DNA from: Magnetospirillum gryphiswaldense MSR-1 v2
GTDB lineage: Bacteria; Pseudomonadota; Alphaproteobacteria; Rhodospirillales; Magnetospirillaceae
DNA: 64,000 nucleotides
Assembly (NCBI RefSeq): GCF_000513295.1
Contig: NC_023065.1
Location: 558,001 to 622,000 of the forward strand
Direction of reading: 5' to 3'
Each line of letters starts with the position of its first letter. Position 1 is the first letter of the stretch. The position numbers were made by a program, and so were the translations under genes. The notes beneath the pieces are model-generated. The model had not been told where the DNA came from, made no database searches, and was given only the letters and a program-made list of their open reading frames with translations. Shown here piece after piece: positions 34,306-37,076 of this stretch.

Positions 34306-34410
34306 CGGGTTTGCCCGTGCCGTGGCGGGCGCCCCACGGGCATAAGGTTGCAACGCTGCCCGGCACTGACCATACTGCGACCCTCTTGTTTCCATGATGG
34401 GACCGGTCGC

Positions 34411-35394
34411 ATGAAAGTCATGATCAACGGCGAAGAGCGCGCCTTGGCGGCGGCGCAAAGCGTCGAGGCGGTTTTGTTGGGTTTGGGCATCGATCCGCGC
34501 AAGGTGGCGGTCGAACGCAATCTTGAGATCGTGCCCAAATCCACCTACGCCCAGGTCATGGTCGGCGATGGCGACCGGCTGGAAATCGTTCATTTCATCG
34601 GCGGAGGATCGGCGGACGTGGTCAGCGACGATTATTTCGAGGTGGCCGGGCGCAAGTTCCGTTCGCGCCTGCTGGTGGGCACCGGCAAATACAAGGATTT
34701 CGACGAAACCGCCAAGGCCATCGCCGAATCGGGGGCGGAAATCGTCACCGTCGCCGTGCGCCGGGTCAATCTGTCCGATCCCAGCCAGCCCATGCTGGTG
34801 GATTACGTCAGCCCGAAGCAATACACCTATCTGCCCAACACCGCCGGCTGTTTCACCGCCGACGACGCCGTGCGCACGCTGCGCCTGGCGCGCGAGGCCG
34901 GCGGCTGGGATCTGGTCAAGCTGGAAGTCCTGGGTGACCAGAAGACGCTCTATCCCAATATGCCGGAAACCCTGAAGGCGGCCGAGGCGCTGATCAAGGA
35001 CGGCTTCAAGGTCATGGTTTATTGTTCCGACGACCCCATCCAGGCCAAGATGCTGGAGGACATGGGGTGCGTCGCCATCATGCCGTTGGGGTCGCTGATC
35101 GGCTCGGGCCTGGGCATCATCAATCCCATCAATATCCGCTTGATCAAGGAAAGCGCCAAGGTGCCGGTCCTGGTCGATGCCGGCGTCGGCACCGCGTCGG
35201 ACGCCGCGGTGGCCATGGAGCTGGGCTGCGACGGCGTGCTGATGAATACCGCCATCGCCGCCGCCAAGGACCCCATCGGCATGGCCAAGGCCATGCGGTT
35301 GGCGGTGGAGGCCGGTCGCCTGGCCTATCTGTCGGGCCGCATGCCCAAGAAGATGTATGCCGACCCCAGCTCGCCCCTGGCCGGGCTGATCTGA
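34411..35394 (+). CDS. thiSG: Fused sulfur carrier ThiS / thiazole synthase ThiG
   Basis: A 327-residue fusion. Residues 1-66 are a ThiS ubiquitin-like domain ([20 protein letters not shown] ... [13 protein letters not shown]). The rest is ThiG, which forms the thiazole ring of thiamine: [18 protein letters not shown], the Schiff-base Lys in [49 protein letters not shown]. In free ThiS the C-terminal Gly-Gly is thiocarboxylated; here it is followed directly by ThiG, so either processing or another route is needed. Fusions of this kind are annotated in other alphaproteobacteria. No TPP riboswitch is recognised in front. Confidence 0.93.
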
Positions 35395-35589
35395 AAGGGG
35401 CGGGACGGGACACTGCCAATGGTGTTGCCGTCCCCCTTTTGGCCACAATACGTTCCGTCGCCCGGTTGTGCTTGGCCGTCCATAAGTTATTGATTTTATT
35501 GAGCCAACTTGAGCATTAGGAAAATATTTTTTCCCAAGGGTTATTTTTCACTTTTCGTCGCCGAAAAACGCTGTATATAGCCACTTCAG

Positions 35590-35945
35590 GTGAGACGTAC
35601 AGCGCACGTGCCTCTGGCCCTACGGGGTTTAAGCAACGACGTCCAAGGCGTCTTCTGGGTGCAAGCGGGTTAACTCCCCGGTGCTTGGAGGATCAAGCTA
35701 TGAACGTAGTGGCTCGGCAGACGCTGTCAGAGTTTTCCTATTCCAGCTTCGTGAACGGGTTACCCGCTCTGCAGGCCTTCGACCTGCTGTGGTGCGACGT
35801 CCGAAGTACCTCCCGGCGGATCTAACGGCTTCCCGAACAGCCGTCGTTTTCGGACTGACGACCCTGCCTGATGGCGGGGTTTCGGGGCCGCTTTCCTGAC
35901 ATTCGGGCTCGACGCCCAAATCAATACATCTGGGGAGGACTCGCG
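35590..35945 (+). promoter_or_regulatory. Structured leader of the decarboxylase gene (speF-type leader candidate)
   Basis: About 350 nt of untranslated leader before the decarboxylase. In order it has: a small GACG/CGTC hairpin (about 35640); CAAGC (35662-35666) able to pair with GCTTG (35683-35687); a 41-codon uORF; then two hairpins, ACGGCT/AGCCGT followed by CGTTTTC (terminator-like, about 35825-35850) and CCCTGCC/GGCGGGG (about 35862-35880). GCTTG can instead pair with CAAGC at 35694-35698, looping out the uORF ribosome site. A regulatory RNA motif called speF is known upstream of alphaproteobacterial ornithine decarboxylases; identity with it is inferred from position. Confidence 0.6.
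35700..35825 (+). CDS. Leader peptide (uORF), 41 residues
   Basis: An ORF with a strong GGAGG site 8 nt before its ATG, beginning MNVVARQTLSEFSYSSF and ending DLLWCDVRSTSRRI. It lies wholly inside the decarboxylase leader and ends at the start of a terminator-like hairpin. E. coli speF is controlled by an ornithine-sensing leader peptide (SpeFL); this peptide shows no clear sequence match to it, so function as a sensor is inferred from layout. Confidence 0.55.
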   Translation: MNVVARQTLSEFSYSSFVNGLPALQAFDLLWCDVRSTSRRI

Positions 35946-37076
35946 ATGACCGCGAAGATCGCTCGTTTTCTGGAGGAAGTCCGTCCTGCGACGCCGTGTG
36001 TGGTCGTCGATCTGGACGTCGTGCGAGACAATTACATGGGCCTGCGCCACTGGCTGCCCTTGGCTCAGGTGTATTATGCCGTCAAGGCCAACCCGGCGCC
36101 GGAAATCATCCGCATGCTGGTGGGCCTGGGCTCCAGCTTCGACGTCGCCTCGCGCGGTGAAGTCGATCTGTGCCTGGAAAACGGTGCCCGCGCCGACAAC
36201 ATCTCGTTTGGCAACACCATTAAGAAGCAGTCGGACATCGCCTACGCCTATTCCAAGGGTGTGCGTCTGTACGCTTTCGACTCGGAAGCGGAACTGGAAA
36301 AGCTGGCCGAATCGGCCCCCGGTTCGCGCGTGTTCTGCCGCATCCTGATGACTTGCGATGGGGCCGAATGGCCGCTGTCGCGCAAGTTCGGCTGCGAGAT
36401 CGAGATGGCCAAGGATCTGCTGGTCAAGGCGCGTGAACTGGGCATGGACCCTTACGGCGTGTCCTTCCACGTGGGCAGCCAGCAGACCGACCTCAATCAG
36501 TGGGACATCGCTGTCGGCAAGGCCGCCATGCTGTTCACCGCCCTGAACGAAGCCGGCATCGACCTGAAGATGATGAATTTGGGCGGCGGCTTCCCGGCCA
36601 AGTACCGCACCGACATCCCGGCGGTGGAACGCTATGCCGACGCCGTCATGCACGCCATGACCAACCATTTCGGCAATGCCCTGCCGGCCATGATCATCGA
36701 GCCGGGCCGGTCGCTGGTCGGCGATGCCGGCGTGTTGGAAGCGGAAGTGGTGCTGATCTCCAAGAAGTCCTATGACGAGGACGTGCGCTGGGTCTATCTG
36801 GACATCGGAAAGTTCGGCGGCTTGGCCGAAACCATGGACGAGGCCATCAAGTACCGCATTCAGACCCCCCGTGACGGCGAGGAAACCGCCCCCGTCGTGC
36901 TGGCCGGTCCGACCTGCGATTCCGCCGACATCCTGTACGAGAAGGCCGGTTACGAAATGCCGGTGACCCTGAAGGTGGGTGACAAGGTGCGCATCCTGTC
37001 GACCGGCGCCTACACCACCTCGTATTCGGCGGTGAACTTCAATGGCTTTGCCCCCTTGAAGGCCTATTTCATCTGA
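35946..37076 (+). CDS. PLP-dependent ornithine/lysine-type decarboxylase (fold III)
   Basis: A 376-residue alanine-racemase-fold decarboxylase, most likely ornithine decarboxylase making putrescine. The PLP lysine is in VYYAVKANPAPEI, followed by SFDVASRGEVDLC, VSFHVGSQQTD (PLP ring stacking), NLGGGFPAKY (phosphate loop), EPGRSLVGDAG and the catalytic cysteine in LAGPTCDSADILYE near the C-terminus. Specificity for ornithine or lysine cannot be read with confidence. GGGGAGGA lies 9 nt before the ATG. Regulated by the long leader described separately. Confidence 0.93.
   Translation: MTAKIARFLEEVRPATPCVVVDLDVVRDNYMGLRHWLPLAQVYYAVKANPAPEIIRMLVGLGSSFDVASRGEVDLCLENGARADNISFGNTIKKQSDIAYAYSKGVRLYAFDSEAELEKLAESAPGSRVFCRILMTCDGAEWPLSRKFGCEIEMAKDLLVKARELGMDPYGVSFHVGSQQTDLNQWDIAVGKAAMLFTALNEAGIDLKMMNLGGGFPAKYRTDIPAVERYADAVMHAMTNHFGNALPAMIIEPGRSLVGDAGVLEAEVVLISKKSYDEDVRWVYLDIGKFGGLAETMDEAIKYRIQTPRDGEETAPVVLAGPTCDSADILYEKAGYEMPVTLKVGDKVRILSTGAYTTSYSAVNFNGFAPLKAYFI

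Follow-up and report, generated by a model that had tools for sequence, protein, structure and literature searches.

The speF leader motif (Rfam RF00518) was described in alphaproteobacteria in 2005 (Corbino 2005, PMC1273637). In the in-line probing reported for its A. tumefaciens representative, ornithine, lysine, diaminopimelate, putrescine, cadaverine and spermidine were not bound (PMC1273637), and in 2020 the function of this leader was still termed unclear (PMC7717549). Another Rfam family, ar45 (RF02347), is classed as an alphaproteobacterial 'sRNA', and its expression in Bartonella is reported to be separate from that of speF (PMC7717549). The odc1 leader (uORF-25-1), which also precedes an alphaproteobacterial ornithine decarboxylase (ODC) gene, combines a hairpin that hides a ribosome site with a conserved upstream open reading frame (uORF) of fixed length, 11 residues, which starts at a UUG two bases ahead of the one that opens the main ORF, also a UUG (PMC8632094). 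Outside this class, translation of Salmonella orf34 (speFL) is reported to block Rho before speF; that leader has a uORF with rare codons, of which two consecutive Arg codons matter, a hairpin downstream of its stop and no intrinsic terminator, and the passages describing it mention no element that hides the ribosome site of the uORF (PMC6386406). A structured RNA and a uORF jointly control a gene, through Rho or reinitiation, in the Mbox and B12 riboswitches of M. tuberculosis (PMC12810186, PMC11260477), which have known ligands and belong to other genes and another phylum.

The leader analysed here lies in a stretch of 64,000 nucleotides, called the window below, from Magnetospirillum gryphiswaldense MSR-1 v2 (contig NC_023065.1, positions 558,001 to 622,000), whose genome is a single contig of 4,365,796 bases. 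Its features are collected in Table 1. We consider it plausible, though still short of probable, that polyamine genes in this and related bacteria are preceded by a two-part control module, in which an RNA that hides a ribosome site acts as the gate to a leader peptide.

Table 1. Features of the decarboxylase leader, in positions of the window
Feature	Position	Strand	Basis
Probable -10 box TATATA	35574..35579	+	By eye; similar box at the same place in many aligned relatives
Conserved 5' block AGACGTAC-GCGCACGTGCC-CTGGCC with small hairpin P1	35593..35629	+	MAFFT alignments
Structured RNA element, extent taken from models R1 and R2	35602..35702	+	Model matches
Conserved core AAGCAACGACGTC with GACGUC/GGCGUC hairpin	35631..35652	+	Mostly invariant alignment columns
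Anti-Shine-Dalgarno strand UCUUCUGGGUGC	35651..35662	+	RNAalifold, pairing tests
GUGCUUGGAGGA, strand with uORF GGAGG (35687-35691), pairs with 35651-35662	35681..35692	+	RNAalifold, pairing tests
uORF, 41 codons, MNVVARQTLSEFSYSSFVNGLPALQAFDLLWCDVRSTSRRI	ATG 35700 to TAA 35823-35825	+	Sequence, tblastn, family alignment
CGA-AGT (Arg-Ser), two adjacent rare codons unchanged throughout the close group	35802..35807	+	uORF alignment, codon usage
Hairpin starting inside the uORF stop codon (ACGGCU/AGCCGU)	35825..35844	+	By eye; compensatory changes in relatives
Second hairpin CCCTGCC/GGCGGGG	35862..35879	+	By eye; not an intrinsic terminator by scan
ODC Shine-Dalgarno	35934..35938	+	By eye
Ornithine/lysine-type PLP decarboxylase (ODC) gene	35946..37076	+	Pfam Orn_Arg_deC_N and Orn_DAP_Arg_deC

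Relation to described leaders

The decarboxylase gene matches a lysine/ornithine decarboxylase in the PDB (E 9.1e-60) and is of the COG0019 ornithine decarboxylase type, the kind of gene expected behind RF00518 speF RNAs; no NCBIfam model reached its cut-off. A consensus promoter scan detected no promoter for the leader, and the -10 box was recognised by eye; the transcript probably starts near 35586-35592. Just 5' of the leader, ThiS and ThiG domains share one open frame (34348-35394).

A preliminary description of the locus had noted that its position matches that of the alphaproteobacterial speF leader. The two resemble each other in standing at the same place before a like decarboxylase, in being long and structured, and in a conservation that starts near the transcript start, but RF00518 did not match the window at its gathering score (over 37 bits) nor, within 35300-36100, at E values up to 10. 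The model also found nothing in 20 loci of the family at E<=1, and exceeded its cut-off in 4 of 190 genomes of the class. In two same-genus speF leaders inspected by eye (L070 and L071, locus numbers being given with L), no frame-conserved uORF was seen, unlike in the window. One RF00518 leader (L317) is also matched weakly, with E 0.0033, by a model of the element (R2, below), which hints at a link between the element and speF.

Resemblance to ar45 is confined to short blocks. The ar45 covariance model does not match the window; the blocks GCACGUGCC (35604-35612) and AAGCAACGACG (35631-35641) are common to both and occur in ar45 order, and the conserved 5' block is similar to the 5' part of ar45 in its alignment to L231. 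In the window element, unlike ar45, these blocks lead into the hairpin by which the uORF ribosome site is hidden. Within a single ODC leader, ar45 lies directly 5' of speF in L231 and L236, and below the ar45 gathering score in L210, L213 and L215. To judge from this arrangement, the Rfam families ar45 and speF look like halves of one leader.

The odc1 leader is a near analogue that stands before a like gene in the same class, and it makes the window leader less novel. Both have a hairpin whose right shoulder hides a ribosome site, which in the window is that of the uORF. The paired UUG starts and the 11-residue uORF of odc1 are absent, since the window uORF has an AUG start and 41 codons, and a search for TTGnnTTG in the last 80 bases of 27 leaders of the class was negative. 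More generally, the detached uORFs with an AGT codon described below differ from odc1 in having about 14 to 61 codons, mostly AUG starts, ends well before the gene, and a stop hairpin. With a hairpin placed on its stop codon or immediately behind it, the window uORF resembles leaders of the SpeFL/ORF34 type.

A helix over the ribosome site of the uORF

ODC is present in 54 of 55 genomes of the family, and upstream sequence was taken from 54 ODC loci (one genome contributing two), including loci on contigs named Magnetospirillum aberrantis (of the same genus), Paramagnetospirillum caucaseum and Telmatospirillum siberiense. Rows for one locus with only 2 bases of upstream sequence (L049) and one partial ODC match (G200) were removed before counting. 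The close group consists of 35 leaders, including the window, that were chosen by a uORF peptide tail of the form RS(T/P/M); one of these, at a contig end (L029), was left out of the RNA alignment and retained for uORF counts.

Judged by these alignments, the conserved structure is a predicted 12-bp helix that buries the ribosome site of the uORF. RNAalifold selects this helix (35651-35662 with 35681-35692) in the remaining 34 close leaders, where 99.5% of cells are paired, 7 of the 12 pairs never vary and no double changes occur. Variation comes from more distant relatives. A model built from the close leaders (R1) was searched against 49 sources at E<=0.1 and found the element in 33 of them, and matched none of six RF00518 loci (L070-L075). 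In 32 distinct R1 sequences, comprising the window and other groups, all 12 helix pairs have changed on both sides while 92.0% of cells remain paired. Four pairs of the core hairpin, which form helix 2 of this test, are paired in 94.3% of cells. The whole structure has 98 double-change cells in these sequences, compared with 36.9 +/- 4.4 after shuffling (0 of 500) and 14-28 when partners are slid by 1-3 columns, a count that is favoured by an alignment fitted to the modelled structure.

An alignment-free test, in which start codons were placed manually and plain shuffling of bases served as the control, also points to this helix. The longest helix covers the Shine-Dalgarno core in 35/35 close leaders and in 26/31 others (the exceptions being L048, L067, L125, L207 and L238), and 14 of the 31 leaders outside the close group beat their base shuffles at p<0.05. 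Examples are UUCUUUUUUGGGG with CCCCGGGAGGGAA (L232) and GUCUUCUUAUCGCC with GGCGAUAGGGAGGC (L054). Folding energy of the leader as a whole is ordinary (z -1.21, with 13 of 100 shuffles equally good).

The preliminary description had proposed mutually exclusive hairpins, in which GCTTG (35683-35687) pairs either with an upstream CAAGC (35662-35666), leaving the Shine-Dalgarno free, or with a downstream CAAGC (35694-35698). These coordinates are correct, as are the 41-codon uORF and the hairpin that follows it. The upstream stem can pair in 93.5% of cells across the 34 leaders but lacks covariation, and it is not favoured because it shares bases with the better-supported 12-bp helix and excludes it; the conserved upstream pairing is this helix, which buries the Shine-Dalgarno instead of freeing it. 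The downstream stem pairs in 68.4% of cells. Of its five pairs, two are broken in most of the 34 leaders, the one at columns 96/105 in 23 and the one at 97/104 in 22, and the full downstream CAAGC is confined to six, namely the window and its five nearest relatives. With no covariation in one stem and the other broken in most leaders, the alignment contradicts the mutually exclusive arrangement.

The uORF, its rare serine codon and its stop hairpin

The window uORF is more than a chance reading frame. Its GGAGG is separated from the ATG by 8 bases, which is the average Shine-Dalgarno spacer reported for M. gryphiswaldense (PMC9549626), and its stop precedes the ODC start by 120 bases. With a rule requiring an ATG or GTG start, a Shine-Dalgarno-like site and 25-65 codons, a uORF was found in 52 of 53 family leaders of at least 250 bases, and the only miss (L066) was counted as such; tblastn with the window peptide gave matches in 11 of 199 genomes of the order, its own included. 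Locus L066 belongs to a 0.9 Mb genome of the same family (G043), which has kept ODC; neither the 5' block nor a uORF was found in its leader. By C-terminal type, 35 of the uORFs, including that of the window, end in RS(T/P/M) and 17 encode other peptides; a listed ORF in L119 was treated as chance. All 34 distinct uORFs of the close group are open and have 37 to 49 codons, and their length changes stay in frame, so that frame-disrupting indels are absent from the alignment in which the alternative stem fails.

Pooled dN/dS in the close group is 0.75 over the full uORF and 0.62 within its last 20 codons, which implies modest amino-acid constraint. A second C-terminal motif, YxxLLGR(K/R/E)NP(H/L)SS, recurs outside the close group before ODC in several families. 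An HMM built from 11 peptides of this type gave 11 strong matches (E<=3.2e-6) in the 199 order genomes and 3 (E<=1e-4) in 289 genomes of the class, all before ODC; 8 of these 14 are model-building sequences and 6 are new. In 299 genomes of the phylum, a set containing no positive control, it gave 0 matches at E<=1e-4. Eight weak order matches (E 0.003-0.05) have no adjacent ODC and were taken as chance. The sequence LLGRDVPSSST of Tistlia consotensis (L125) looks intermediate between the HMM motif and the window-type tail.

These peptides raise an unlikely alternative to the two-part module, namely a ligand-sensing arrest peptide resembling SpeFL/ORF34, in which a stall caused by free ornithine or a polyamine near the C-terminal motif would alone set ODC, and the 5' RNA would set the basal level. 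The exclusive occurrence of strong HMM matches before ODC is consistent with this, as are uORFs of this type in f11 and f31 ODC leaders in which no 5' element was detected. However, peptides differ greatly between groups while the AGT codon described below mostly stays, the HMM does not match the uORF of the window, and the uORFs before homospermidine synthase genes carry another peptide. The orf34/speFL peptide is presumably unrelated to that of the window.

The most tightly conserved part of the uORF is, as read from the alignment, at the level of codons. The pair CGA-AGT is unchanged in 34/34 distinct close-group uORFs, while the Asp codon two places before CGA is split evenly between GAC and GAT (17 each) and four codons are used for the intervening Val. 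Both members of the pair are rare in 34 long frames of the window, where AGT accounts for 3.5% of Ser codons and CGA for 2.5% of Arg codons. As the close group was chosen by its RS(T/P/M) tail, its Ser was selected but the codon was not. AGT lies within the last 12 codons in 63 of 66 listed distinct uORFs, whereas AGT makes up 6 of 261 other Ser codons in the same uORFs, these being raw counts of leaders uncorrected for kinship. By group, it occurs there in 35/35 close leaders, in 22/25 other listed ODC leaders bearing the element (exceptions being L054, L061 and L062), and in 7/7 leaders that have the peptide motif and no detected element. Among detached uORFs behind R2 matches class-wide, it is found in 6 of 9 (L299, L301, L305, L306, L307 and L313, not L311, L312 or L320), and in none of six rows for overlapping-type uORFs, two of which are duplicates. 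Five R1 matches (L108, L110, L119, L211 and L219) have no recognisable AGT uORF and were left out of these counts. A literature search found no account of this uORF family or of its AGT codon, subscription papers being mostly outside its reach.

Slow decoding of AGT, and of CGA, near the stop could itself be the signal, if the pause depended on polyamines or on charged tRNA. This codon-level sensing is unlikely. It would account for the enrichment of AGT at uORF ends and for invariant, rare codons among neighbours whose third positions vary, and it agrees with the finding that CGAAGU has no pairing partner at a constant position (on average 1.11 candidates in each leader, compared with 0.68 after shuffling), which also leaves RNA pairing of this sequence unsupported. 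On the other hand, a protein could read the AGT bases as RNA, the kinship of the leaders and the tail-based selection of Ser in the close group bear on the counts, and a minority of leaders lack AGT. A frameshift at AGT was rejected, as both other frames stop at scattered places after it and no frame is conserved.

The hairpin at the uORF stop changes in concert among relatives, with stems such as TGACGGC/GCCGTCA, TGACAGC/GCTGTCA, TGACGAC/GTCGTCA and TGACAAC/GTTGTCG; in L001, L015, L036, L041 and L047 the script took another or poor pairing. Of the 35 close leaders, 29 have UGAC as the stop with its following base. The preliminary description had called the hairpin terminator-like. The hairpin exists, but a scan of 35400-36000 found no intrinsic terminator, and a T-rich stretch (at least 5 T in 8) follows the hairpin in 3 of 35 close leaders. 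In this the leader differs from a classical attenuator, where an intrinsic terminator follows the leader ORF. We found no support for a ribosome on the uORF stop freeing the ODC ribosome site, as the calculated folding access rises in 3/35 leaders and falls in 21/35. Of the translation-coupled attenuation layout that had been proposed, the frame-conserved uORF and the ribosome site within an RNA structure stand, and the alternative stems and the terminator do not. The earlier observation is thus confirmed in part, and its interpretation supported in part.

Distribution of the module and a candidate mechanism

The R2 model matches 58 of 199 order genomes, many in the family of the window more than once, and finds the element in 14 of 27 ODC loci sampled at one per class genome. 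Three architectures are distinguished. The element lies on the ODC start itself in L224, L227, L304 and L318 (in L238, an R1 match with a 94-base leader, direct ODC pairing is seen by eye only); in L196, L197, L198 and L303 it lies before a uORF with a stop codon that overlaps the ATG of ODC; or, as in the window, it precedes a detached uORF. Among 80 listed matches from an exact-motif scan of genome contigs, ODC stands beside 17, and the remaining listed matches are, by estimate, probably chance. A leader in a record titled Stygiobacter sp. (L117, VBWB01000001.1) is identical over 300 bases to one in the genus of the window (L015), and the record name looks wrong.

The element also occurs away from the main ODC gene, in 21 second loci that comprise 20 R2 places not directly before it and L003 of the window's own genome. 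As judged by tblastn, a homospermidine synthase gene (hss) is directly behind nine of these (L279, L280, L281, L283, L285, L286, L287, L289 and L290), and an ODC-like paralog is behind nine others (L003, L288, L291, L292, L293, L295, L296, L297 and L298), in 7 of which, including the window's own genome, hss follows the paralog. The hss at L279 matches solved homospermidine synthases in the PDB with E 5.7e-181. In L294, the element is followed by a GGACT frame (Pfam) and then by the main ODC. In L296, a GGACT-like (AIG2) stretch was seen by eye behind the ODC-like domain in one frame. Two further loci (L282 and L284) have neither odc nor hss within about 3 kb downstream; their element copies have uORFs without AGT and are perhaps decayed. 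AGT is near the uORF end in 14 of the 21 loci, being absent from L282, L284, L292, L293, L295, L296 and L298, and in each of the nine leaders directly before hss the uORF closes with AGT-ATG-stop. The second copy in the window genome (L003 1027-1136, corresponding to G000:C1:1481434-1481543) precedes a uORF of 18 codons that reads MVVPTCGRPQILSRKSSM and ends AGT-ATG-TGA. A search of 20 of these loci at E<=0.05 gave no match to any Rfam family. What is new in these comparisons, then, appears to be the rare AGT near the uORF end and the presence of the module before hss and a second decarboxylase gene.

In the two-part module that we favour, the first part is an RNA element related to ar45 and speF leaders, with a structure, supported by covariation, in which the anti-Shine-Dalgarno strand covers the ribosome site of the next frame. 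The hidden frame is ODC itself in some lineages, and a detached uORF in Magnetospirillum and many others. The second part is the detached uORF, which ends with the rare AGT and, in most of the close leaders, a UGA-C stop; a hairpin encloses the stop. When polyamines are scarce, the element would open and the uORF would be translated. A ribosome pausing at AGT or at the stop could then shield the untranslated leader against Rho or keep it from refolding, and ODC would be expressed, whereas with abundant polyamines the ribosome site would stay hidden and ODC would be off. We infer this sign of control by parsimony, since opening must raise ODC where the element lies on ODC's own ribosome site, and uORF translation should therefore activate ODC as well. 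The nearest precedents from experiment are Salmonella orf34, with its reported Rho control (PMC6386406), and the mycobacterial pairs of riboswitch and uORF (PMC12810186, PMC11260477). Weighing against the module are the reported failure of pathway metabolites to bind the A. tumefaciens speF leader (PMC1273637), the mostly falling access to the ODC ribosome site in the folding calculation, the modest peptide constraint, the leaders that lack AGT, the absence of double changes in the helix within the close group, and the five leaders in which the alignment-free test did not show the helix.

The 5' element could instead be a genuine switch that binds a metabolite or a protein, with the uORF translated as a decoy and playing no part. 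This is very unlikely: the element does lie directly on ODC in some leaders and R2 matches are widespread in the order, but frame, AGT and stop hairpin are conserved in the uORF, and pathway ligands are reported not to be bound by the A. tumefaciens relative (PMC1273637). A switch in which GCTTG chooses between two CAAGC partners, combined with intrinsic termination, is extremely improbable, as both pairings are present in the window and its five nearest relatives but the downstream stem is broken in most of the 34 leaders and the scan found no intrinsic terminator.

For the two-part module, the comparison offers a testable answer to what a speF-related leader does, in that an ar45-like RNA would hide the ribosome site of ODC or of a uORF. 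Finding the module before hss and the ODC-like paralog as well suggests that it controls a polyamine regulon. In a broader proposal, possible but unlikely, this shared RNA-plus-uORF module would run the alphaproteobacterial polyamine regulon (ODC, the ODC-like paralog and hss), and the AGU beside the stop hairpin, rather than the peptide, would be the conserved pause point that reports the polyamine level.
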